The notes beneath the pieces were generated by a model, which searched no databases, was not told where the DNA came from, and saw only the letters and a program-made list of their open reading frames with translations. Below are positions 3,603-53,923 of a stretch of 64,000 nt of DNA, piece after piece. Position 1 is the first letter of the stretch. Every line of letters begins with the position of its first letter. Location: assembly GCF_014205225.1 (NCBI RefSeq), contig NZ_JACHNB010000001.1, positions 6,181,501 through 6,245,500 of the forward strand, read 5' to 3'. This DNA comes from Actinoplanes octamycinicus (GTDB lineage Bacteria > Actinomycetota > Actinomycetes > Mycobacteriales > Micromonosporaceae). A program made the position numbers and the translations under genes.

Positions 3603-5108
3603 ATGGCGTCCGTGCCCGGACTGCGCGTAGTCGACTACGACCCGGCATGGCCGGACCTGGCCGTCGCCGCCATCACGGAGCTCGAGCGGGCGTTGCCGGA
3701 TGTCCTGGTGGCGATCGAGCACATCGGGTCGACCGCGGTGCCGGGGCTGGCCGCCAAGCCGATCATCGACTTGATGGCCGCGGTGCCCGACCTGGGCATC
3801 GTGCACCAGCGCGAGGAGACCTTGGCGGGCCTGGGCTATCGCCGTCATGTCAACGGCATGGTCGACCGGCTGCTGTACGTGCGGGCCACGGACGGTGACC
3901 GTACGCATATCCTGCACGTCGTCACGGTGGAGAGCTGGCCGACCCGCAACCAGCGGATGCTGCGTGACCACCTGCGCGCGCATCCGGATGACGCCCAGCG
4001 GTACGCGCGCCTGAAGCGGGAACTGGCAGCCGGCGGCATCGCCCCCGGTGAGTACGCGCGAGCCAAGACCGGACTCATCCAGGAGCTGACCGACCGGGCC
4101 CGCGCCGCACGCGGGCTGCCGCCGGTGCCGGTCTGGGAGAAGACGGGGGCGCGTGCCGAGCGCGACGGACGGGGTGCTGGCTGGTTCTGCGGTGACCTGC
4201 ACGTACACACGCGGTGTTCACACGCCGGTGAGCTGACGCCGGCCCAGGTGGCTGCCGCGGCCCGCGAGGCCGGCCTCGACTTCCTCGCCGTCACCGAGCA
4301 CAACAACGCCGACAGCCACGGTGCGTGGGAGCCGCTCGCCGGTGACGATCTCCTGGTCATCCTCGGGCAGGAAGTGGTCACCGCGTCGGGACACTGGCTG
4401 GCGCTCGGCCTCGACCGCGGCCAGGTCATCGATTGGCGCCACGATCACCGTGACGGCGTGGACCGGGTGCGTCGGGCCGGTGGCCTGTGCGTGGTGGCGC
4501 ATCCGCACGCGCCCTATCCGTCCGGGACGTTCGAGTATCCCGTCGAGCGGTTCGACGCGGTGGAGGTGTGGAACGGCCGGTGGACGTCGGACCTGCCGTG
4601 GAACGCCGACAACGAGGCGGCGCTGGCCGACTGGGGCCGGGACCTGGCAGCCGCCGTCCGTCGTGGCCGGTGGCAGCCGGCGATCGGCGACAGCGACGCT
4701 CACCTGCACGGCCAGCTCGGCACGCCGCAGACCGTCGTGCTGGCCGGGGAGTTGAGCGCCGACGCGGTGCTCGCCGGTGTGCGTGCCGGGCGCTGCTGGG
4801 TCGCCGAGTCGGCCGACGTCCGGCTCTCCTTCACGGCACGTGCCGGTGACCGCGGCGCCGGGATCGGCGAGGTGCTGGACACCGGTGGTGAGGCCGTCGC
4901 GGCCGCGGTGCAGGTCAGCGGGGTGCCGTCCGGCACGGTCACCTTCCACACCGATCGTGGTGTGCCGCACCGGCACATCCTGCCGGGTACGGGATCGGGC
5001 TCGGCCGACTGGCTCACCAGCGCCGGGGAGTCGGCGTTCGTACGCATCGAGGTGCGCCATCCGTCCGGCCGGATGGCGGCGCTGACGAACCCCATCATCC
5101 TGATCTAG
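3603..5108 (+). CDS. GrpB-family domain fused to a PHP (CehA/McbA-like) metallohydrolase
   Basis: Residues 1 to about 170 match the GrpB/UPF0157 family: VVDYDPAWPD, then IEHIGSTAVPGLAAKPIIDLM, a nucleotidyltransferase-fold signature (G-S-T-A-V-P-G-L with K-P-I-I-D). From about residue 195 a PHP domain begins with GDLHVHTRCSHAGE (the HxH metal ligands are near 200 and 202), followed by LAVTEHNN, VVAHPHAPYPSG and GDSDAHLHGQLG, as in CehA/McbA-type metallohydrolases. The C-terminal 100 residues look beta-rich. The ATG at 3603 has AGG right against it; a GTG at 3612 has AGGATGG at better spacing and may be the true start. The gene overlaps the convergent CtaG-like gene by 14 bases. The substrate is unknown. 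Confidence 0.8.
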   Translation: MASVPGLRVVDYDPAWPDLAVAAITELERALPDVLVAIEHIGSTAVPGLAAKPIIDLMAAVPDLGIVHQREETLAGLGYRRHVNGMVDRLLYVRATDGDRTHILHVVTVESWPTRNQRMLRDHLRAHPDDAQRYARLKRELAAGGIAPGEYARAKTGLIQELTDRARAARGLPPVPVWEKTGARAERDGRGAGWFCGDLHVHTRCSHAGELTPAQVAAAAREAGLDFLAVTEHNNADSHGAWEPLAGDDLLVILGQEVVTASGHWLALGLDRGQVIDWRHDHRDGVDRVRRAGGLCVVAHPHAPYPSGTFEYPVERFDAVEVWNGRWTSDLPWNADNEAALADWGRDLAAAVRRGRWQPAIGDSDAHLHGQLGTPQTVVLAGELSADAVLAGVRAGRCWVAESADVRLSFTARAGDRGAGIGEVLDTGGEAVAAAVQVSGVPSGTVTFHTDRGVPHRHILPGTGSGSADWLTSAGESAFVRIEVRHPSGRMAALTNPIILI

Positions 5109-5916
5109 GGAGGGCCTCCCCGTCAGCGCCGATGTCCTTGGGGAGTCGCCACAGCGGACGGACCGGTCGGCTGGCCGGGACGCGAGGTCCCCGGCGGGCC
5201 GGGCCGGTGGCGTCGTACCACTGGCGGCAGAAGACGGCGATCAGGGCCAGGTCGACCAGGTCGCCGCCGTAATACATCAGCTCGGCGCCGGCCTGGGCGT
5301 CGGCGGCGGGGACACCGGCGGGCGGGTGGCCGTACAGGAACTTGGCCAGAATGCCGTGCGCGGCCAGGAAAGCGATCAGAATGATCGCGCGGACCGGCCG
5401 GGCCGGGCGGCGCGGATCCGGGTCGACGCCGACCATCGCGGCGGTGAACAGGTAGCCGGCGGCGACGATGTGGACGTGCACGGCGGTCCGCAGCCAGTCG
5501 TGTCCGGCCATCGCCGGGTAGAGGTCCGTGGTGTAGAGCAGCCACAGGCCACCGGCATTCAGCGTCGCGGCGGTGAGCGGATGGGTGAGCACGTGCACCG
5601 GGCCGCTGCGGAGCACCCGGGCCAGCGTCCGAGCCCGGCGGACCGGCAGCGCCCGCAGGGCCAGCGTGACCGGCGCGGCGAGCACCAGCAGCAGCGGCGC
5701 GGCCATCCCGAGCAGCAGGTGCCCGGTCATGTGCCCGGCCAGATCGTGGTGGGCGTGGCCGGCCGCCGGTCGCAGCGTGGCGGCCGCGGCGAGCACCAGC
5801 CCGGCGGCCCAGTAGACGACGCGCCGGCCGGGCCACCAGCCGCCGCGACGATGCACCGTGACCACCCCGGCCGCGTAGCCGGCGGCCGCGGCCAGCAGCG
5901 CCAGGCCGGAGACCAT
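5095..5916 (-). CDS. CtaG-like cytochrome c oxidase assembly membrane protein
   Basis: This 273-residue polytopic protein resembles the actinobacterial CtaG (caa3-type oxidase assembly) family. It has about seven hydrophobic segments and conserved histidines within membrane regions (AGHAHHDLAGHMTGHLLLGMAAPLLL and VHVHIVAAGYLF). The family is thought to help assemble or supply copper to cytochrome c oxidase. The ATG at 5916 overlaps the TGA of the upstream DUF2243 gene (TGATG), which implies translational coupling; a GTG one codon earlier is possible. The DUF2243-CtaG pairing recurs in actinobacteria, supporting a joint membrane or respiratory role. No copper-chaperone gene adjoins. Confidence 0.82.
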   Translation of the reverse strand: MVSGLALLAAAAGYAAGVVTVHRRGGWWPGRRVVYWAAGLVLAAAATLRPAAGHAHHDLAGHMTGHLLLGMAAPLLLVLAAPVTLALRALPVRRARTLARVLRSGPVHVLTHPLTAATLNAGGLWLLYTTDLYPAMAGHDWLRTAVHVHIVAAGYLFTAAMVGVDPDPRRPARPVRAIILIAFLAAHGILAKFLYGHPPAGVPAADAQAGAELMYYGGDLVDLALIAVFCRQWYDATGPARRGPRVPASRPVRPLWRLPKDIGADGEALPRSG

Positions 5917-6356
5917 CACCCGGCGCGGCCGCGGGACCGGGCCAGCAGCACGGCCCCCGCGACGATCATGACGGCGGCGAGGATGTTCCAGGTCCAGTCG
6001 TAGGGGGTGACGTCGACGTCGTACCGGATCTGGTGCAGTCGCATGACCTTGTGCTGCAGCGTGCCGTCGTAGAGCTGGAAACCGCCGGCGCCGACCAGCA
6101 GGCCACCCCACCACGGCGTCGCGCGGAAGGCCGCCCGGCGGCGCAGGTCGGCCAGCAGGAACAGTGCGGCGACGGTGGCGAACCAGCTGACCGCGTGGAA
6201 CACGCCGTCGGAGACCAGGCCCGCCGCGGGCGTCGACTTGTCGTAGAAGTGGTGCCAGTGCAGCAGCTGGTGGAAGACCGTCTCGTCGACGAAACCGGCC
6301 ACCCCCACCCCGAGCAGCACCCCGGACACCACGTTGCGGGCTGGCGCGGACGACAT
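5916..6356 (-). CDS. DUF2243 membrane protein
   Basis: This 146-residue protein has four predicted membrane helices. Its DETVFHQLLHWHHFYDKSTP segment, followed by GLVSDGVFHAVSW, is the hallmark of DUF2243. The histidines at helix edges suggest metal or heme contact, but the family function is unknown. It is the first gene of a two-gene operon, with its stop overlapping the start of the CtaG-like gene. The start MSSAPARNVVSG is chosen because the first helix begins directly after it. Confidence 0.85.
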   Translation of the reverse strand: MSSAPARNVVSGVLLGVGVAGFVDETVFHQLLHWHHFYDKSTPAAGLVSDGVFHAVSWFATVAALFLLADLRRRAAFRATPWWGGLLVGAGGFQLYDGTLQHKVMRLHQIRYDVDVTPYDWTWNILAAVMIVAGAVLLARSRGRAG

Positions 6357-36256: not shown

Positions 36257-37834
36257 CTATTCCACCCAGGGGCGGGGCTGGTTGACGATCTCGGCGCGCA
36301 GGAACACGTCGTACTTGCCCTCGCCCTTGCCGTCGATCCAGAACTTGTGGGTGTAGGGCTCGTTCGTGCCCGGCACCATGCCCTGGACCGGCGGCTGAGC
36401 GTAGCCCTTGGCGAACAGCGTCTCGCCGTGCTCGCCGACGTAGTCGTCGGCCAGGCCGAGGCCCTCGACCAGACCGCCGGCGATCAGGCTGCCGATCGGG
36501 CCGCCGACCACCATGCCGGCGATGGCGGCCGCCGGGGTGAGCCCGCTGCCCGGTGCGGCGGCGCTGGCCATGTCGTAGATCGCGGCGCCCTGGGCGGCGG
36601 CCGCGGCGGCCTTCTGCATGGCCGCGTCGACCTTCTTGCGGGCCTCCGACGGGGAGCCCTCGTCGTTCTCCATCACCGCCACGTGCAGCGCGCTGGTGAC
36701 CACCGGCTGGAAGTCGGTGACCACGGCCGGCGTGGACCGCACGTCGTTCTTGTCCACGTCGCTGAACTTGAACATCTGGGTGGCCGAGCGGCCCAGCCCG
36801 CCCCAGGAGACGATGAAGTACGGCTCGTCGCTGCCGGACAGCTCGCTGGACTCGCCCCAGCACTGGAAGCCGAGGAACCAGATCCGCAGGTGCTGGTCGA
36901 TGATGATCTCCGGGTCGCCGGACGCGCCGGCGGTGATGTGCCCGCCGGTCATCTGCCAGCGGCCGGTCCCGGCGGTCACGCTCACCGCCCCGGTCGGCAG
37001 GCCCAGCTTGCTGGTCACGCCGCCGGTACGCTCGTACGCTTCGAGCGCCTTGCGGGCCACGACGTCGCTGCGGTTCACCATCGCGGTCAGCGACTGCAGC
37101 CGCCAGCCCTGCTGCCACAGCTCGTCGTAGCGTTTGCGGTACTGCTCGTAGGTCGCCCCGTAGAGCTGGAACTCGCCGGTGCTGGCTGGCCGCCAGACCG
37201 CGGTGTAGCGGGTGTGCCCGCCGACCACGTACGGCTGCAGCAGCTTCAGGCGCCAGCCCTGCTTCCACAGCTCGTCGTACTTCGCCCGGTACGTCTCGTA
37301 GCTGACGTCGTACATCTGGATCTCGCCGTCGGTCGACGGCCGCCACACCGCGGTGTAGCGGACCTGGTCGCCGGGCAGCACGAACGGCTGCAGCGCCTTG
37401 AGCCGCCAGCCCTGCTTCCACAGTTCGTCGTACTTCTTGCGGAAGTCGGCGTAGGTCCACCCGTACACCTGGGTCTCGCCCTCGGTGGACGGCTGCCAGA
37501 CCGCGGTGTAGCGGACCTGGCCGCCGACCACGTACGGCTGGATCAGCTTCAGCCGCCAGCCCTGCTTCCACAGCTCGTCGTACTTGGCGCGGAACGTCTC
37601 GTAGGGCACGTCGTACAGCTGGATCTCGCCCTCGGTGGACTGCCGCCAGACCGCGGTGTAGCGGACCTGGTCGCCGGAGAGCACGAACGGCTGCAGCGAC
37701 TTGAGCCGCCAGCCCTGCTTCCAGAGCTCGTCGTACTTCTTGCGGTAGTCGGCGTAGGTCCACCCGTAGACCTGGATCTCGCCCTCGGTGGAGGGCCGCC
37801 AGACCGCCGAATACCGGATCTCGTCGTTCGCCAT
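36257..37834 (-). CDS. Five-repeat BTRD1 (polyglycine-hydrolase-like) protein with unknown C-terminal domain
   Basis: This encodes 525 residues from ATG 37834 with GGGAGA upstream. Residues 4 to about 235 are five tandem copies of a roughly 45-residue unit (RYTAVWRPSTEGEIQVYGWT, then KKYDELWKQGWRLKSLQPFV), which matches the Bacterial Tandem Repeat Domain 1 family also seen in polyglycine hydrolases. A linker with an LGLPTG word follows. The C-terminal about 230 residues include IWFLGFQCWGES, an Ala-rich helical stretch and a glycine-rich hydrophobic hairpin (AAAIAGMVVGGPIGSLIAGG). There is no signal peptide and no serine-peptidase domain like that of polyglycine hydrolases. The role is unknown; the hydrophobic hairpin hints at membrane contact. 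Confidence 0.75.
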   Translation of the reverse strand: MANDEIRYSAVWRPSTEGEIQVYGWTYADYRKKYDELWKQGWRLKSLQPFVLSGDQVRYTAVWRQSTEGEIQLYDVPYETFRAKYDELWKQGWRLKLIQPYVVGGQVRYTAVWQPSTEGETQVYGWTYADFRKKYDELWKQGWRLKALQPFVLPGDQVRYTAVWRPSTDGEIQMYDVSYETYRAKYDELWKQGWRLKLLQPYVVGGHTRYTAVWRPASTGEFQLYGATYEQYRKRYDELWQQGWRLQSLTAMVNRSDVVARKALEAYERTGGVTSKLGLPTGAVSVTAGTGRWQMTGGHITAGASGDPEIIIDQHLRIWFLGFQCWGESSELSGSDEPYFIVSWGGLGRSATQMFKFSDVDKNDVRSTPAVVTDFQPVVTSALHVAVMENDEGSPSEARKKVDAAMQKAAAAAAQGAAIYDMASAAAPGSGLTPAAAIAGMVVGGPIGSLIAGGLVEGLGLADDYVGEHGETLFAKGYAQPPVQGMVPGTNEPYTHKFWIDGKGEGKYDVFLRAEIVNQPRPWVE

Positions 37835-40302: not shown

Positions 40303-41487
40303 GTGACGCTCAACCCGGTCGACGTGACCGTTCCGCTGGCGCCCGGCGGGCCCGCCGCGCCGCACAGCGCCAGCGGGGAGATGGTGGCCCTGCACGACCT
40401 CGACGGGGTGGCGCCGCCGGCGCAGGCGGCCCGGCGGTGGATCCCGAAGCGGGTGGTGGCGACGCCGGCCGCCTACGACCATGCGCACGGGCAGCGGATC
40501 ATGGCGTTGCTGGCGGCGCGTGGGATCGAGGTGGAGCGGCTGCGCGGGAACCGGCTGACCGGGCTGCGCGGGGAGAGCGACCGGGCGACCTACGCGCGGG
40601 CGAAGTCGACGATGGCGATCGTGGTGAGCCCGCCGTCGCGGCGCAAGCTGCAGCCGATCGCGCCGAGCGCGGACTGGCGGTTCGACCTGGCCGAAGGCTG
40701 CCCGGCGCACTGCCAGTACTGCTATCTGGCCGGGTCGCTGTCCGGGCCGCCGGTGACCCGGGTCTACGCCGACCTGGACGACATCCTGGCCGGGCTGGGC
40801 GACTACGTGGGCCGGGGGACGATCACCAGCCGCCGGGAGCACCGGCGTGACGAGGGCACCACCTTCGAGGCGTCCTGCTACACCGATCCGCTGGCGCTCG
40901 ACCATCTGACCGGCAGCTGGCGGCGGGCGGTCGAGCACTTCGGCGCGTGGGACGCGCCGGTGCAGTTGCGCTGGACGACCAAGTTCGACGATGTCGGGCC
41001 GTTCGTCGGGCTCGCCCACCACGGGCGGACCCGGGTCCGGTTGAGCGTCAACTGCCGGCCGGTGACCACCCGGGTCGAGGGCGGCACGAGCCGTCTCGAG
41101 GACCGGCTCGCGGCGCTGCGGCGGCTCGCGCTGGACGGCTATCCGGTCGGGCTCACCATCGCGCCGATCATCGCGGTGCCGGACTGGCGGGCGCACTACG
41201 GGGAGCTGCTCGATGACGTTGCCGGGGTGCTGCGGGGCGTACCGGACATCGATCTGACCGCTGAGCTGATCACGCATCGCTTCACGCCGGGCAGCAAGGA
41301 GGTGCTGCTGGGCTGGTATCCGCGGACGAAGCTGGAGATGGACGAGGAGTCCCGCAGCCGGAAGCACGGCAAATTCGGCGCGGTCAAATACGTCTACCCG
41401 CCGGAGACGATGGCCGGGCTGCGGACCTGGTTCCACGAGCAGATCGCCGCCCGCCTGCCGGCGTGCCGCATCCTCTACTGGACCTGA
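40303..41487 (+). CDS. Spore photoproduct lyase-like radical SAM protein
   Basis: This encodes 394 residues from a GTG at 40303. The radical SAM cluster motif C-x3-C-x2-C is at Cys133, Cys137 and Cys140 (EGCPAHCQYCYLAGS), with the YL after the third Cys as in SplB. ASCYTDPLALDHLTGSW, LRWTTKFDDVGPFVGLAHHG and AELITHRFTPGSKEVLLGWY are family segments. SplB repairs the 5-thyminyl-dihydrothymine photoproduct in spore DNA using S-adenosylmethionine. The catalytic Cys141 of Bacillus SplB is Tyr or Leu here, as in other actinobacterial members, so repair activity needs testing. A spore-forming host is consistent. Confidence 0.8.
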   Translation: MTLNPVDVTVPLAPGGPAAPHSASGEMVALHDLDGVAPPAQAARRWIPKRVVATPAAYDHAHGQRIMALLAARGIEVERLRGNRLTGLRGESDRATYARAKSTMAIVVSPPSRRKLQPIAPSADWRFDLAEGCPAHCQYCYLAGSLSGPPVTRVYADLDDILAGLGDYVGRGTITSRREHRRDEGTTFEASCYTDPLALDHLTGSWRRAVEHFGAWDAPVQLRWTTKFDDVGPFVGLAHHGRTRVRLSVNCRPVTTRVEGGTSRLEDRLAALRRLALDGYPVGLTIAPIIAVPDWRAHYGELLDDVAGVLRGVPDIDLTAELITHRFTPGSKEVLLGWYPRTKLEMDEESRSRKHGKFGAVKYVYPPETMAGLRTWFHEQIAARLPACRILYWT

Positions 41488-41698: not shown

Positions 41699-41867
41699 AT
41701 CGGCAGACCATACCGCGCACCGTCGAGGCAAGGCTTCCTTTGGCCAGCCCCACCGCCCAACGGCAGGAGACTGCGCACGGAAAAGGGGCACGGCCGGGTA
41801 GGGCCCCTCGCGCCGCGGCGGCGGTGAGGGCTACCCTCGGAGTGAGGGCCGGAGGGAGTGCCCAGCT

Positions 41868-42674
41868 ATGTCCTTATCGCCTGGCTTCGGGTCGAGCGAG
41901 CCGACCGAGTACCTGTTCCCGGCAAGTCCCGACGCGCTGTATGACATCCGGGTCTACGTGACCCGGCTGGCCCGGGAGGCCGGTTTCACCGACCGCGAGC
42001 GGGAGCGGATCGTCCTGGTCACCCACGAACTGGCGGCCAACGCGGTCGAGCACAGCGCCACCGAGGTGGTCTGCGTGCGGTGGGAGGACACCGGCCAGGG
42101 CGTGTGGATCACCGTGTCCGACGACGGCGTCTTCGAGGGCGGTGGCGGCAACGGCGACCGCGGGCGTGGCCTGCGGATCGTGCTCAGCCTGGCCGACGAG
42201 GTCACCATCCGGCCGGGCCGGCGCGGCGGGCAGGGCACCGCGGTCCGCCTGCGGGTGCCGGTCAGCGCCGGGCGGACCGCCCCGGCAGTCAGTGACCCGG
42301 CGCCGCGCCGGGTGCTGCTCGTCGACGGTGACCGGTTCGCCGCGCGGTCGTTGTCCGCGTTCCTCGAGGCCGAGGGCTTCCCGACGGTGGTGGCGGCCGA
42401 GTCGGCGGAGGCCGGCCGTGCGGTGGCCGCGGAGCCACCACAGTTGGCGATCATCGATCTGATGACCTCGCACGGGCTGACCGTCCAGCTCTGCGACGAC
42501 CTCACCCGAACAGGAGTCCCGGTCTTGGCCATGTCGATCCTCGCCCCGCCGCGGGACCTGCGGTGCAGCCGTTTCCTGCGCAAACCGGTGCATCCTCTGG
42601 AGGTGTTGGCCATGGTGCGACAGCTGACCGAGCCGTCCGCCGCGGGCGCCGCCGCCGAGGTGCCCGGTGCCTGA
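41868..42674 (+). CDS. HATPase (RsbW-like) fused to a response-regulator receiver
   Basis: This encodes 268 residues. Residues about 15-132 form a GHKL ATPase of the anti-sigma type: N-box THELAANAVEHS (Glu54, Asn58), VSDDGVF, then GDRGRGLRIV. Residues about 144-258 form a CheY-like receiver: RRVLLVDGD, phosphoacceptor Asp197 in IIDLM, Ser in AMSIL and Lys in RKPVHP, so it looks phosphorylatable. This joins a partner-switch kinase to a two-component input. GGAGGGAG upstream of the ATG is strong. The stop overlaps the KaiC-like gene by eight bases; first gene of a three-gene operon. Confidence 0.85.
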   Translation: MSLSPGFGSSEPTEYLFPASPDALYDIRVYVTRLAREAGFTDRERERIVLVTHELAANAVEHSATEVVCVRWEDTGQGVWITVSDDGVFEGGGGNGDRGRGLRIVLSLADEVTIRPGRRGGQGTAVRLRVPVSAGRTAPAVSDPAPRRVLLVDGDRFAARSLSAFLEAEGFPTVVAAESAEAGRAVAAEPPQLAIIDLMTSHGLTVQLCDDLTRTGVPVLAMSILAPPRDLRCSRFLRKPVHPLEVLAMVRQLTEPSAAGAAAEVPGA

Positions 42675-44049
42675 GCGGCGACTGACGAGCGGGCAGGACA
42701 GGTTCGACGCGATCCTCGGTGGTGGGCTGATCGACCCGTCCATCGCCTTGATCGCCGGCCTGCCGGGGAGCGGCAAGACGGTCCTGGCGCAGCAGTACGC
42801 GTTCGCCAATGGAACCGACGAGCGCCCGGCGATCTATCTGAGCACCGTCGCGGAGCCGCTGAGCAAGATTCTGTATTTCGGCGAGGCGCTGTCCTTCTTC
42901 GACCCGGACCGGGTCGGCCGGTCGGTGCTCTTCGAGGACCTCGGCGGTCAGATCGACGACAACGGGTTGGTCGGCGCGTTGCGCCGGATCAGTGGCCTGG
43001 TCGAGCGGCAGCCGTGCTCGGTGCTGATCATCGACAGTTTCCGGGCGTTGCGCTATCGGGCGGCCGGCGAGCGGGAGTTCGAGGGCTTCGTCCACCAGCT
43101 GGCCGGTCAGCTGGCCGCGAGCGGCACGATGGCGCTGTGGCTCGGTGAGTACCGGCGTGACGAGCTGGAGGGCTGCCCGGAGTTCGCGGTCGCCGACGCC
43201 GCCGTCCTGCTCGCCACCGAGGACGCCGGGCAGCGCGACAGCCGGGCCCTACGGGTGCTCAAGCTGCGCGGCAGCGACTTCCGCTCCGGCGCGCACGCCT
43301 ACCGCATCGAGAACTCCGGCATCCGGGTCTTCCCCCGGCTCAGCGACGTCGACGCCGGGGCGTACGAGCTGGGCGAGCGCCGGACCACGTCGGGTATCGC
43401 CGCGCTGGACATGCTGGTCGGCGAGGGCTACTGGCCCGGCTCGGCGACCCTGGTGATCGGCCCGTCCGGATCCGGTAAGACGGTGATGGGCCTGCAGTTC
43501 GTCTACGGCGGGGCGAAATTGGGCGAGCCCGGGGTCTACGCCTCGATGCAGGAGAACCGGGTCCAGCTCACCCGGATGATCAACGGATTCGGCTGGGGCC
43601 TCGACGATCACGGCGCGGTGCTGCGCTGCGACTCGCCGAACGACATCTACATCGACCAGTGGTATTACGACCTGCTCGACACGATCAAGGCAGCCGGCGC
43701 GCGCCGGCTGGTGATCGACAGCCTGGGTGACCTCGCCGCCGCCTGCCCGGACGAGAAACGTTTCCGCGAGTTCGTCTACGCCCTGCTCAACCACTGCTCG
43801 CGGGCGGGGATCAGCGTGCTGCTGACCTTCGAGTCGGCCGAACTGTACGGCCACACCAGTCTGTCCGAACGCGGTGTCTCGCACCTCTCCGACAACGTGA
43901 TCCTGCTCCAGTACGTCCGCAACGACGTCAAGGTCGGGCGGGCGCTGACCGTGCTGAAGACACGGGCCAGCCAGCACGTCCCGCAGTCCCACGAGTTCGA
44001 GATCACCCACGATGGCATCGACATCAAAGCCGCCCTCGACACCGTTTGA
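42667..44049 (+). CDS. Double-domain KaiC-like ATPase
   Basis: This encodes 460 residues from a GTG at 42667. It has two RecA-like KaiC domains. The first has Walker A GLPGSGKT (31-38), STVAEPLSK and Walker B SVLIIDSF. The second has GPSGSGKT (265-272), SMQENRVQ and RRLVIDSL. The sensory KaiC family forms hexamers that act as ATP-driven signalling platforms. Near the ATP gamma-phosphate each domain has one Glu where clock KaiC has an EE pair. I see no KaiA or KaiB gene, so this is not a circadian set. Coupling with a HATPase-receiver and a STAS gene suggests a signalling ATPase in a partner-switch module. Confidence 0.9.
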   Translation: MPERRLTSGQDRFDAILGGGLIDPSIALIAGLPGSGKTVLAQQYAFANGTDERPAIYLSTVAEPLSKILYFGEALSFFDPDRVGRSVLFEDLGGQIDDNGLVGALRRISGLVERQPCSVLIIDSFRALRYRAAGEREFEGFVHQLAGQLAASGTMALWLGEYRRDELEGCPEFAVADAAVLLATEDAGQRDSRALRVLKLRGSDFRSGAHAYRIENSGIRVFPRLSDVDAGAYELGERRTTSGIAALDMLVGEGYWPGSATLVIGPSGSGKTVMGLQFVYGGAKLGEPGVYASMQENRVQLTRMINGFGWGLDDHGAVLRCDSPNDIYIDQWYYDLLDTIKAAGARRLVIDSLGDLAAACPDEKRFREFVYALLNHCSRAGISVLLTFESAELYGHTSLSERGVSHLSDNVILLQYVRNDVKVGRALTVLKTRASQHVPQSHEFEITHDGIDIKAALDTV

Positions 44050-44350
44050 GGTTCGCCGGGACCTTCGGGACCCGTACACCGTGCACCTCATCGGCGAGCT
44101 GGACCTGGCCACCCGCGACATCCTCGCGGAGGCCCTCGGCGATGCCGCGCGTCCGGGCCACGACCTGATCCTCGACTGCACCGACCTCGACTTCATCGAC
44201 GCGGCCGCGATCGCCGTGCTGGTGTGCACGGCACACGGCCTCGGCGCGGGACAGCTGCGGCTGACGCACCTGCGAGCCGGCCTGGCCGACATCTTCGACC
44301 TGCTCAAACTCCCCGAGACCGTGCCGAACTTCCACCACGAGATCGGGTGA
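44012..44350 (+). CDS. STAS-domain protein, KaiC operon partner
   Basis: This encodes 112 residues. TVHLIGELDLATRDILAEAL, then DLILDCTDLDFIDAAAIAVL, shows an anti-sigma antagonist fold. The loop that should carry the phosphorylatable Ser (D-S-x-G) is DAAA, so classic phospho-switching is lost and binding to the HATPase would be controlled another way. The ATG lies 38 bases inside the end of the KaiC gene, in another frame, which makes co-translation likely. No better-placed start is visible after the KaiC stop. Confidence 0.82.
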   Translation: MASTSKPPSTPFEVRRDLRDPYTVHLIGELDLATRDILAEALGDAARPGHDLILDCTDLDFIDAAAIAVLVCTAHGLGAGQLRLTHLRAGLADIFDLLKLPETVPNFHHEIG

Positions 44351-50514: not shown

Positions 50515-52107
50515 GTGAAAGGACCGTCCGTGCAGCGAAATTCTCGACGCTCCGTCATCCGCCGATCGACCGCCGCGGTGATCACCTCGGCGGTGGCCGC
50601 CGGCAGCCTGGTGAGTCTGTCCCCGGCACCCGCGCAGGCATCGTCGATCGACGGCCCGATCGGCCGGAGCGAAATCCTGTCCCGCGCCCAGAACTGGGTG
50701 GACCGGGGCATCACCTACACCCAGACCGGCACCTGGGCCAGCGACGCGGACGGTGACAAGACCTATCGCCGGGACTGCTCCGGGCTGGTGTCGATGGCCT
50801 GGCACCTGAGCAACAGCTACGTCACCGGTGATTTCCAGGGCAGCAACTCGCGGTGGAGCACGCTCGGCAGCATCGACGACTTCCAGGCCGGCGACGCGAT
50901 GGTGCGGACCGGTCACATGGAGCTGTTCGCGTACTGGGCCGACAAGGGCGACCACAGCAAGGGCGCCTACGTCTACTCCTTCAACAGCGACGGCGAGACG
51001 GTGCAGAACCCGACCGCGCGGTCGAACGAGGGAAACCTCGGGTTCAACAGCGTCTCCGACCTGCGGTCCTACAAGCCGATCCGGCGCACCGGCCTGACCG
51101 GCGGGGTCAGCGGGGAGAAGATGGCGCCGGCGCTGGCCTACGACGACGGTGACGGCACCCAGACGATCTACCGCTGGCGGTCGAACACCAGCAGCTTCAG
51201 CCACACCACCGATTACCAGGGCGAGGGTACGTTCCGGCTGTCCAACGTCGGCGACCGCGTCGCGTCCGGTGACGTGGACGGTGACGGCACCGATGACGTC
51301 GTGATGGCCTACCAGGATGCCGAGGGCACGTTCGGCTTCTACGTCTTCGACGGTGGCCTGACTTCTCGTGGCCGCTGGTACACCTCCGGCGCGTTCAACC
51401 TTTCCGCGGTCGGCGGTCGATTGGTCGTCGCGGACTTCACCGGTGACGGCAAGGCGGAGCCGGCGCTGGTCCGGGACAACGGTGACGGTACCCAGAGCAT
51501 CTACCGCTGGACGTCCACGGGCAGCAGTTTCGCCCGCACCACCGACTATGTCGGTACCGGGTCGTTCCGACTGTCCAATGTGGGCAACCGGGTGGCAGCC
51601 GGTGACGTCGACGGTGATGGCAAGGCCGACATCGTGATGGCCTACCAGAACGCGGACAACACGTTCAGCTACTACGTGTGGAAGTCCGGGCTCAGCAGCC
51701 AGGGCGCCTGGTACACGTCCGGTTCGTTCAACCTCGACACCGTCGACGGGCGGATGGTCGTCGCGGACTTCACCGGTGACGGCAAGGCGGAGCCCGCGCT
51801 GGTCCGTGACGACGGTGACGGGACGCAGAGCATCTACCGCTGGACGTCGACGGGCAGTGGCTTCTCCCGTACCACCGACTACGTCGGCACCGGAACCTTC
51901 CGGCTGTCCAACGTCGGCGACCGGGTGGCCGCCGGTGACGTCGACGGTGATGCCAAGGCGGACATCGTGATGGCCTACCAGAACGCCGACAACACGTTCA
52001 GCTACTACGTCTGGAAGTCCGGCCTGACCAGCGAAGGCGTCTGGTACACGTCCGGCTCCTACTCCCTCGACCGGGTCGGCGGCCGCATGGTCCTCGGCAC
52101 CTGGTAG
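50515..52107 (+). CDS. Secreted NlpC/P60-like hydrolase with FG-GAP repeat region
   Basis: This encodes 530 residues from a GTG at 50515 with AGCAGGAG upstream. After a signal peptide, the N-terminal domain (about 40-200) shows a C40-type cell-wall peptidase: Cys in RRDCSGLVSMAWHL and His in VRTGHMELFAYW. The C-terminal about 330 residues are three 111-residue FG-GAP/VCBS-like units with SGDVDGDGTDDVVMAY and VVADFTGDGKAEPALVRD; Asp-rich loops suggest Ca2+ binding and a propeller-type scaffold. Probably cuts peptidoglycan peptides. Nucleotides 51123-52107 are almost identical to the end of the next gene. Confidence 0.85.
   Translation: MKGPSVQRNSRRSVIRRSTAAVITSAVAAGSLVSLSPAPAQASSIDGPIGRSEILSRAQNWVDRGITYTQTGTWASDADGDKTYRRDCSGLVSMAWHLSNSYVTGDFQGSNSRWSTLGSIDDFQAGDAMVRTGHMELFAYWADKGDHSKGAYVYSFNSDGETVQNPTARSNEGNLGFNSVSDLRSYKPIRRTGLTGGVSGEKMAPALAYDDGDGTQTIYRWRSNTSSFSHTTDYQGEGTFRLSNVGDRVASGDVDGDGTDDVVMAYQDAEGTFGFYVFDGGLTSRGRWYTSGAFNLSAVGGRLVVADFTGDGKAEPALVRDNGDGTQSIYRWTSTGSSFARTTDYVGTGSFRLSNVGNRVAAGDVDGDGKADIVMAYQNADNTFSYYVWKSGLSSQGAWYTSGSFNLDTVDGRMVVADFTGDGKAEPALVRDDGDGTQSIYRWTSTGSGFSRTTDYVGTGTFRLSNVGDRVAAGDVDGDAKADIVMAYQNADNTFSYYVWKSGLTSEGVWYTSGSYSLDRVGGRMVLGTW
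51123..52107 (+). repeat. 985-base direct repeat, copy 1 (partner 52939-53923)
   Basis: The two copies are separated by exactly 1816 bases from start to start with no insertion or deletion. By eye about 20 bases differ, most of them synonymous and concentrated in the first two-thirds; the last roughly 290 bases appear identical. Each copy covers the FG-GAP region of one secreted hydrolase. Confidence 0.9.
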
Positions 52108-52133
52108 CCCACCGCGCCGACCCCCCTCGCCTC

Positions 52134-52164
52134 GCCCGTCCGGCGCAGCTGGCGCCGGACGGGC
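52134..52164 (+). terminator. Hairpin terminator
   Basis: A perfect 13-bp stem (52134-52146 with 52152-52164) with loop AGCTG lies 27 bases after the stop at 52107 and before the GH25 gene. Confidence 0.8.
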
Positions 52165-52192
52165 ACCCCCCTCGCCACAGACAGGAAGCGCC

Positions 52193-53923
52193 GTGCGCAC
52201 CGTACCGTGGATCGCTCGAACAGCCGCTCTGATCACGCTGCCCCTGATCGCCATGCTGACCCCCGCCTCGGCCGACGCCGCTCCGACCGGCTACTCGGTG
52301 ACCGGCATCGACGTGTCGCACTACCAGGGCACCATCAACTGGTCGTCGGTCGCTGACGCGGGGACCGACTTCGCGTACGCCAAGGCGACCGAAGGCACGA
52401 ACTACACCGACCCGACCTACAGCGCCAACCGGACCGGCGCCCGCGCCAACAGCATCTACTTCGGCGCGTACCACTTCGCCCGGCCCGACCAGGGCGACCC
52501 GCGCGGCCAGGCGGACCGCCTGGTCAACACCAGCCAGTACAGCAGTGACGGCCGAACCCTGCCGCCGATGCTCGACATCGAGTGGGCGTCCGGGCAGGCG
52601 ACCTGCTTCGGCCTGTCGACGAGCTCGATGGTGTCCTGGATCAGCCAATTCCTCGACCAGGTCCGGGTCCGCACCGGCCAGAAGGCGATGATCTACACCA
52701 ACCCCAACTGGTGGAATCCGTGCACCGGCAACACCACTGCCTTCGGCAGTTACCCCCTCTTCCATTCCCGGTACGCCGACACGCCGGGCGCCCTGCCGTC
52801 CGGCTGGTCGCAGTTCACCCTCTGGCAGTACACGTCGAGCGGCAGCGTTCCCGGAGTGTCCGGCGGCGTGGACCGCGACGTCTTCAACGGCACACTGGCC
52901 CAGCTGCGCGCCCTCTGCAACGGCGGATCGGGGAACAAGGCGCCGGCCCTGGCCTACGACAACGGTGACGGCACCCAGACGATCTACCGCTGGCGATCCA
53001 ACGGCAGCGGCTTCAGCCACACCACCGATTACCAGGGCGAGGGTACGTTCCGGCTGTCCAACGTCGGCGACCGCGTCGCGTCCGGTGACGTGGACGGTGA
53101 CGGCACCGATGACGTCGTGATGGCCTACCAGGATGCCGAGGGCACGTTCGGCTTATACGTCTTCGACGGTGGCCTGACTTCTCGTGGCCGCTGGTACACC
53201 TCCGGCGCGTTCAACCTTTCCGCGGTCGGCGGTCGATTGGTCGTCGCGGACTTCACCGGTGACGGCAAGGCGGAGCCGGCGCTGGTCCGGGACAACGGTG
53301 ACGGTACCCAGAGCATCTACCGCTGGACGTCCACGGGCAGCAGCTTCGCCCGCACCACCGACTATGTCGGTACCGGGTCGTTCCGGCTGTCCAATGTGGG
53401 CAACCGGGTGGCAGCCGGTGACGTCGACGGCGATGGCAAAGCCGACATCGTGATGGCCTACCAGAACGCGGACAACACGTTCAGCTACTACGTATGGAAG
53501 TCCGGGCTCAGCAGCCAGGGCGCCTGGTACACGTCCGGTTCGTTCAACCTCGACACCGTCGACGGCCGGATGGTCGTCGCCGACTTCACCGGTGACGGCA
53601 AGGCCGAGCCTGCGCTGGTCCGTGACGACGGCGACGGAACCCAGAGCATCTACCGCTGGACGTCGACGGGCAGTGGCTTCTCCCGTACCACCGACTACGT
53701 CGGCACCGGAACCTTCCGGCTGTCCAACGTCGGCGACCGGGTGGCCGCCGGTGACGTCGACGGTGATGCCAAGGCGGACATCGTGATGGCCTACCAGAAC
53801 GCCGACAACACGTTCAGCTACTACGTCTGGAAGTCCGGCCTGACCAGCGAAGGCGTCTGGTACACGTCCGGCTCCTACTCCCTCGACCGGGTCGGCGGCC
53901 GCATGGTCCTCGGCACCTGGTGA
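52193..53923 (+). CDS. Secreted GH25 muramidase with FG-GAP repeat region
   Basis: This encodes 576 residues from a GTG at 52193 with AGGAAG upstream. A signal peptide (1 to about 32) is followed by a GH25 lysozyme domain (about 37-235): GYSVTGIDVSHYQGTINWSS with catalytic Asp, FAYAKATEGTNYTDPTYSAN, LPPMLDIEWASG with the Asp/Glu pair, and FTLWQYTSSGSVPGVSGGVD. It hydrolyses the glycan strand of peptidoglycan. The C-terminal region repeats the three 111-residue FG-GAP units of the preceding gene with few changes (for example Leu for Phe in LYVFDGG). The pair would attack both bonds of the wall, which suggests roles in growth, sporulation or predation. Confidence 0.93.
   Translation: MRTVPWIARTAALITLPLIAMLTPASADAAPTGYSVTGIDVSHYQGTINWSSVADAGTDFAYAKATEGTNYTDPTYSANRTGARANSIYFGAYHFARPDQGDPRGQADRLVNTSQYSSDGRTLPPMLDIEWASGQATCFGLSTSSMVSWISQFLDQVRVRTGQKAMIYTNPNWWNPCTGNTTAFGSYPLFHSRYADTPGALPSGWSQFTLWQYTSSGSVPGVSGGVDRDVFNGTLAQLRALCNGGSGNKAPALAYDNGDGTQTIYRWRSNGSGFSHTTDYQGEGTFRLSNVGDRVASGDVDGDGTDDVVMAYQDAEGTFGLYVFDGGLTSRGRWYTSGAFNLSAVGGRLVVADFTGDGKAEPALVRDNGDGTQSIYRWTSTGSSFARTTDYVGTGSFRLSNVGNRVAAGDVDGDGKADIVMAYQNADNTFSYYVWKSGLSSQGAWYTSGSFNLDTVDGRMVVADFTGDGKAEPALVRDDGDGTQSIYRWTSTGSGFSRTTDYVGTGTFRLSNVGDRVAAGDVDGDAKADIVMAYQNADNTFSYYVWKSGLTSEGVWYTSGSYSLDRVGGRMVLGTW
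52939..53923 (+). repeat. 985-base direct repeat, copy 2 (partner 51123-52107)
   Basis: This is the second copy of the FG-GAP coding block, colinear with copy 1. Each copy also contains two and a bit internal 333-base units. Confidence 0.9.

Follow-up and report, generated by a model that had tools for sequence, protein, structure and literature searches.

The subject of this report is a three-gene operon of Actinoplanes octamycinicus. It lies in a stretch of 64,000 nucleotides, called the window here. Its three open reading frames (ORFs), all on the + strand, encode proteins of 268, 460 and 112 residues and overlap by 8 and 38 nucleotides; the ORF coordinates agree in this with the layout given in the original prediction. 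The first gene (41868..42674, +) encodes a HATPase–receiver protein, as judged from its ORF, from Pfam and from alignment with relatives. An RsbW/SpoIIAB-type HATPase domain occupies residues 17–129 (41916..42254, +), on the evidence of Pfam, the alignment and the structural matches of the model. An atypical receiver domain, recognised by alignment, residue spacing and the model, occupies residues 149–253 (42312..42626, +). The second gene (42667..44049, +) encodes a double-domain KaiC-like ATPase, identified by Pfam and by both Walker A motifs. The third (44012..44350, +) encodes a STAS-domain protein, identified by its ORF, Pfam and loop alignment, in which the loop reads DAAA and is without Ser.

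What kind of HATPase is fused to the receiver? The Pfam family HATPase_c_2 matches residues 17–129 with E 1.3e-14. Our alignment of the protein contained 19 sequences: that of the window, 16 relatives at 52–79% identity and two at 40–41%. Glu54, Asn58, Asp85-x-Gly87 and Gly101 are invariant in all 19, and the Glu/Asn and D-x-G are kept in each of the ten HATPase cassettes described below. Compared with solved structures, the model has SpoIIAB, RsbW and UsfX chains as its 14 best matches. The domain has the GHKL fold with the N-box Glu/Asn and the G1 box of the RsbW/SpoIIAB kinases, and the assignment of an RsbW-type HATPase with Glu54 and Asn58 is upheld by family, residues and fold alike.

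The receiver–KaiC core

How general is the abutment of a receiver gene and kaiC? We searched genome contigs with an alignment of KaiC; the loci used are the best 80 of 298. In 63 of these the KaiC is at least 41% identical to that of the window; two are cut by contig ends and in the other 61 of 61 a receiver gene abuts kaiC. The domain fused to this receiver is MerR in 44 loci, HATPase in nine, GAF–ANTAR in three and HATPase–MerR in one; none was detected in four, among them L060 and L063, whose sequence begins at the contig end. In the GAF–ANTAR type the ANTAR domain is just under the Pfam cut-off, the GAF domain passes in one of two proteins scanned, and the receiver was detected with our own profile, Pfam giving no match that reached its cut-off. 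Within the window's genus the receiver abuts kaiC in 12 of the 13 regions fetched, including that of the window genome's second KaiC; the second match of G022 and two of G008 were not fetched whole, and a short locus of G008 (L022) has no abutting receiver. In a second draw, from the same phylum, a receiver abutted kaiC at 13 of 13 loci (L166–L178), several of them apparently from species already in the first set; one further like-scoring match, in G452, is without a locus.

On the KaiC tree (79 rows) seven changes of architecture are enough, compared with 30.7 in shuffles. The HATPase and GAF–ANTAR types share a 100/100 KaiC clade, which falls within the MerR types if the tree is rooted outside them (midpoint). 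We conclude that the receiver–KaiC pair is a wider core, missed by the original prediction, and that the HATPase is one of several effectors attached to it. The swapping of MerR, ANTAR and HATPase domains on the receiver suggests a common route from KaiC to gene expression. No paper on these KaiC operons turned up among the top-ranked matches of a mostly non-subscription literature.

STAS genes also occur near the MerR loci, mostly divergent: within 700 nucleotides they are found upstream in 18 of 42 and downstream in two of 39. In bins of 1.4 kb further off the counts are one of 31 upstream and none of 36 downstream. That they are noise was considered and dropped on the upstream enrichment.

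Two unusual architectures were encountered. At L078 (5920-7011, Nitriliruptorales) a HATPase–MerR–receiver protein precedes KaiC; the G1 box of its HATPase is degenerate and it lies elsewhere in the tree. At L178 (2-1501) a 499-residue ORF, open at the locus edge, carries a HATPase and then a receiver directly before KaiC and looks like a hybrid kinase.

A short class of receiver

Is this receiver of the usual build? In CheY terms, the switch Thr/Ser and the conserved Lys are 22 residues apart. Of 79 KaiC-linked receivers, 77 have a spacing of 15–19, and the other two have 20 and 22; of the 13 of the second draw, 12 are at 15–19 and the last at 20. As controls, the 30 best-scoring receivers of the window genome (of 150 listed) have a spacing of 22 without exception. 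Twenty hand-picked receivers of lower rank have 22 in 16 cases and 20, 21 and 23 once each, one being unanchored. The 31 unlinked receivers in the flanks, all longer than 95 residues by our own profile, have 22 in 19 cases, 24 in five, 20 in two and 17, 21 and 23 once each, two being unanchored. A spacing of 19 or less thus occurs in one of 78 anchored, unlinked controls.

The AlphaFold model of the HATPase–receiver protein has no helix (α4) between β4 and β5, at a mean predicted local distance difference test score (pLDDT) of 76.7; its domain arrangement is not trusted, because the predicted template modelling score (pTM) is 0.48. The α4 face of receivers is normally used for dimerisation and output. 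Judged by spacing and alignment, the KaiC-linked receivers are a distinct class with a shortened β4–β5 stretch. Since the shortening extends across every effector type, it would point to one shared binding role, with KaiC as the constant partner.

A broader proposal, which we hold tentatively and a little short of an even chance, would cover a large family of double KaiCs outside the cyanobacteria, chiefly in Actinomycetota and Chloroflexota. The short receiver, with its reduced α4 region, would be the one conserved interface, docking to the KaiC ring and carrying an exchangeable effector: MerR to act on DNA, ANTAR on RNA and an RsbW-type HATPase on a sigma partner switch. The window operon would be the sigma-switch version.

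In other Actinomycetota (L184, L185, L187, L188 and L190–L194) a single-domain KaiC is followed, at 0–5 nucleotides by ORF ends, by a receiver of 130–133 residues. These nine receivers have an identical switch stretch with a spacing of 23, and by that spacing were set apart as a different pairing and not counted.

The STAS protein

The third protein contains the STAS domain PF01740 (E 7.8e-11, Pfam), the domain of SpoIIAA and RsbV. Where does it start? The database cluster for this protein has 89 residues, against the 112 of the ORF, and with the shorter start the 38-nucleotide overlap would vanish. The overlap (44012..44049, +) joins the end of kaiC to the start of the STAS gene. In all eight STAS-bearing cassettes, Lentzea included, an ATG stands exactly 38 nucleotides before the end of kaiC, and in all eight a GAT codon for Asp, with GGC or GGA directly after it, supplies this ATG. 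At the corresponding Asp codon of the two cassettes that lack STAS stands GAC. Elsewhere in the ten kaiC genes GAT accounts for 33 of 288 Asp codons, in rows that are related and not independent. The codon pattern supports both the 112-residue start and the overlap as real.

The Ser of the switch loop, present in RsbV and SpoIIAA as part of D-S-S/T, has gone from the window protein. The alignment gives D-A-A there, in agreement with the DAAA loop noted originally. A-A occupies the site in the window, in L039, L041 and L046, as well as in six proteins from the database, of which two belong to Planobispora species of the loci; L043 has G-R and L045 V-R. The first Ser is gone in seven of the eight STAS proteins, and six of the eight have no Ser at either place. 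A same-strand STAS gene overlapping the end of kaiC is found in eight of the ten HATPase cassettes. The 69 other rows in which a receiver abuts kaiC show none, three of them having less than 420 nucleotides of downstream sequence.

A model for the operon

How might these parts work together? We favour, with a probability of about 0.5, a KaiC-driven partner switch of the RsbW type in which the receiver acts as KaiC-docking adaptor. The KaiC homologue would probably form an ATPase hexamer, and the nucleotide state of this hexamer would serve as the signal. The C-terminal receiver would read KaiC by docking to it in a nucleotide-dependent manner, rather than, or more than, accept phosphate from a sensor kinase. 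The HATPase would be the output, an anti-sigma factor or kinase of the RsbW/SpoIIAB type whose availability changes as KaiC binds and releases, and the co-translated STAS protein may bind it as its antagonist. The final target would be an alternative sigma factor encoded elsewhere. Because the STAS proteins mostly lack the target Ser, they would not be switched off by the HATPase kinase, and therefore switching would come from KaiC and the receiver. The gene order, the overlaps, their conservation, the residue patterns, the receiver class and the variation of the effector on a constant core are the observed part of this scheme.

What weighs against it? The partners are predicted from gene order to bind, and operon neighbours need not do so. 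Where the KaiC is less than 41% identical to that of the window, a receiver abuts at five of 17 loci and is lacking at 12. There is none beside the window genome's third KaiC, nor at L021–L023, L179–L183, L186 and L189, which carry more distant double KaiCs. Since distant KaiCs are mostly without a receiver, the pairing characterises this one KaiC family and does not extend to KaiCs in general. A STAS gene does not follow kaiC in two of the ten HATPase cassettes (L042 and L044). Where it does, the second loop position is still Ser in the protein of L040 (A-S), and that of Lentzea (L098) has S-S, with Gly for Asp. The original proposal that the switch is not gated by Ser phosphorylation of the STAS protein is thus favoured by the loss of the first Ser in seven of eight, but Lentzea keeps Ser-Ser. 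None of the 16 Sigma70_r3 matches of the genome is in the window, a search to which sigma factors without that region are invisible; for the Sigma70_r3 kind, the statement that no sigma gene adjoins is therefore correct. On the phosphorylation side, Asp197, Ser223 and Lys239 remain, invariant in 19 of 19 aligned sequences, and 12 stand-alone KaiC-linked receivers of the window's genus have a complete DD/D/S-T/K site. In L041 a 528-residue HATPase protein (4582-6168), probably a histidine kinase and a possible input to that cassette, is encoded 61 nucleotides upstream of the HATPase–receiver gene, and HATPase genes lie close behind KaiC in L100 and L113.

The lack of a Sigma70_r3 gene in the window and the patchy, mostly Ser-less STAS protein would suit another arrangement, in which KaiC itself is phosphorylated or regulated by the HATPase, or the HATPase is no more than an ATPase cofactor, the STAS protein is simply a structural partner and no sigma factor takes part. 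A Ser invariant at the S431 position of the ten HATPase-type KaiCs speaks for it too. We consider it distinctly unlikely: the nearest folds of the HATPase are partner-switch anti-sigma kinases, the overlapping STAS gene is seen with the HATPase type only, and the fused domains of the sister lineages act on gene expression.

Possible phosphorylation of the receiver

Could a sensor kinase, instead of KaiC, be the principal input? The Pfam family Response_reg matches residues 149–245 with E 2.3e-5 and 24.9 bits, under its cut-off of 30.2. The window receiver has Asp153-Gly154 at the acidic pair, then Asp197, Ser223 and Lys239, with a Ser-to-Lys spacing of 16. Asp-Gly at the acidic pair, followed by Asp, Ser and Lys, recurs in ten of ten HATPase–receivers. 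Of 45 MerR-type receivers, 28 carry Glu-Arg in place of the acidic pair and eight have Glu where the phospho-Asp would be; two of the three GAF–ANTAR-type receivers have Arg in place of Lys. The available portion of Bourret et al. 2025 (PMC12632262) defines a pseudo-receiver as one in which any one of DD, D, T and K is missing. With one of the five phosphorylation residues gone (Gly154 at the acidic pair), the window receiver is by its predicted residues a pseudo-receiver in that sense. The phosphoacceptor Asp197 of the original prediction is thus present and invariant, but the receiver around it is not a standard one.

An RsbW-type switch gated by a sensor kinase that phosphorylates Asp197, with KaiC as second input, would account for the three invariant residues, for the complete sites in the genus and for the HATPase genes near the L041, L100 and L113 loci. 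It has a precedent in CrsR and HsbR, which are partner-switch proteins of receiver–PP2C–HATPase build, HsbR being fed by a phosphorelay according to the portion of the source available (PMC6482189). Set against it are the Gly in ten of ten, the missing helix α4 of the model and the finding that the other nine cassettes have no further HATPase gene within 700 nucleotides, by an RsbW-type profile that may miss sensor kinases. Two-component gating appears weakened by these residues, including those of the MerR types, and is kept alive by Asp197, Ser223, Lys239 and the L041 kinase; as the primary control of the operon we regard it as unlikely.

The KaiC protein and the clock

Is the operon a reduced timer of the circadian type? 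The second protein matches PF06745 in two stretches (211.6 bits, Pfam), each with a Walker A motif, and so belongs with the double-domain KaiCs. None of the 93 KaiC rows has lost either Walker A lysine (37 and 271 in the window protein) or the K-x-R pairs, so that the two intact motifs claimed at the outset are secure. At the S431 and T432 positions the window protein has Ser405 and His406. The ten HATPase-type KaiCs have Ser at the former in every case, and at the latter His in nine and Ser in one. The second Glu of the catalytic pair is kept in both domains in all ten; the first is replaced by Ala in CI in all ten (mapped by motif) and in CII by Gln in nine and Ala in one. In the window protein CI has Ala-Glu, again mapped by motif, and CII has Gln-Glu. 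We consider ATP hydrolysis by this protein likely, and dual autophosphorylation of the clock type not likely.

Residue 456 of 460 aligns with KaiC 482, which puts the last residue near KaiC 486. The region of the A-loop and tail to which KaiA binds, about KaiC 488–519, is absent, since the window protein stops short of it. Scores against the clock equivalogs of NCBIfam are far under the cut-offs: 147.4 against 546.25 bits for TIGR02655 and 204.5 against 408 for NF006799. No KaiB match was found anywhere in the window genome, in a search that did find matches in control genomes including S. elongatus and did not extend to KaiA; the statement that no KaiB adjoins is accordingly sound. The double-domain KaiC, its Walker motifs and the Ser at the S431 position speak for a timer. 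Set against the lack of KaiB, the missing A-loop region, the His at T432 and the loss of the first catalytic Glu of each pair, they leave a timer very improbable, and we reject the clock reading.

The window genome encodes two more double KaiCs, at G000:C1:7213500-7224500 (L119) and 7310000-7321000 (L120). One has an abutting stand-alone receiver, short and with a canonical site; the other has none.

Distribution and surroundings of the cassette

The ten cassettes, that of the window and nine others, come from Micromonosporaceae, Streptosporangiaceae and Pseudonocardiaceae, the KaiC of the Lentzea cassette being 44% identical to that of the window. The gene order, whose confinement to close relatives had been named beforehand as a refuting test, extends across these three families. 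Of 21 HATPase–receiver relatives listed, 17 (window included) cover at least 90% of the query. The protein is rare: three were found, window included, in 394 genomes of the class (E 1e-20). In 40 genomes (its own, 23 of the genus and 16 of the order) the next best KaiC after that of the window is 39% identical.

On the KaiC tree the Streptosporangiaceae rows are nested inside those of the Micromonosporaceae. This, together with the unrelated flanks, suggests that the cassette has spread horizontally. Carriage by plasmids was considered and rejected: 72,556 plasmid records contain no match to the HATPase–receiver, and their KaiC matches (286 records) are all less than 60% identical. Lentzea stands apart on the tree, weakly, and a single clade for the HATPase type is not rejected by the approximately unbiased test (p-AU 0.273).

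A comparison of the 30–56 kb stretch of the window with the nine relative loci found the three genes alone in common, plus antisense and out-of-frame ORFs, and conserved neighbours were accordingly rejected. Among the relatives, the two Pseudonocardia loci have more in common, and a single gene, at differing distances, recurs in L040 and L044. Upstream of the window operon lies a radical SAM protein of the spore-photoproduct-lyase family (40303..41487, +; Pfam), a family not found beside the cassette in the nine relatives. Downstream lies a gene for 149 residues on the opposite strand, with a weak match to DMP19 (Pfam). Neither is counted as part of the cassette, because nothing beyond the three genes is shared with the relatives. 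The hexamer TACCCT (41832..41837, +), seen in an alignment of upstream DNA, is tentatively a promoter −10 element. A similar TANNNT hexamer stands upstream of several relatives, by eye only, and a promoter motif is not claimed.

Elsewhere in the window, 37088-37807 is a tandem repeat whose period is about 153/303, and both strands carry ORFs in this region. Two more stretches, 51142-52206 and 52958-53912, repeat in tandem with a period of 333 and read like what we take to be the VCBS/FG-GAP type.

Comparison with known systems

The cyanobacterial KaiABC clock has a double-domain KaiC in common with the window; the window genome differs in having no KaiB match and in its KaiC lacking the A-loop region, T432 and the first catalytic Glu. 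A KaiC ATPase tied to a receiver, as in the window, is found in the KaiC hubs and KaiC–receiver fusions of archaea, the fusions being reported from six genera of Methanosarcinaceae, which counts in favour of the docking model. Those are archaeal and form one polypeptide, and the available portion of the source states no partner-switch module (PMC5847659).

With RsbW/RsbV, SpoIIAB/SpoIIAA and UsfX/RsfB the window operon shares the HATPase fold, the catalytic residues and a STAS partner; those systems have neither the receiver fusion nor KaiC. Closer in build are CrsR and HsbR, with CrsA and HsbA, of Shewanella and Pseudomonas, in which a receiver and an RsbW-type kinase or anti-sigma domain are likewise joined in one protein with a paired antagonist; these systems are linked to RpoS. 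They differ in their PP2C domain, of which the Pfam scan of the window protein gave no sign. HsbR receives its input from a phosphorelay, HsbA carries its phosphate on Ser56, and the portion of that work available mentions no KaiC, unlike the window operon (PMC6482189).

How pseudo-receivers are activated is called a mystery in the available part of the account by Bourret et al. (PMC12632262). A receiver that abuts kaiC in 61 of 61 relatives while its effector changes offers a candidate answer in gene order: docking to KaiC would provide pseudo-receivers with a mechanism. The KaiC/short-receiver pair is a testable interface, and the natural swaps of effector allow comparison.

Two of the close relatives are the MerR–receiver and GAF–ANTAR–receiver operons. 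The former, chiefly of Actinomycetota and Chloroflexota, resemble the window in the abutting receiver and kaiC genes, the short receiver class, the double KaiC and a nearby STAS gene (the 18 of 42 upstream). They differ in a DNA-binding output and a STAS gene that is mostly divergent. The latter, of Kutzneria and Amycolatopsis, share with the window the 100/100 KaiC clade and an atypical short receiver. They differ in an output that is likely an RNA-binding antiterminator (the ANTAR match being just under cut-off) and in that no STAS gene was seen. Taken together, the sequences support a KaiC–receiver core with exchangeable effectors, of which the window operon, with a sigma factor as its putative target, would be the sigma-switch version.

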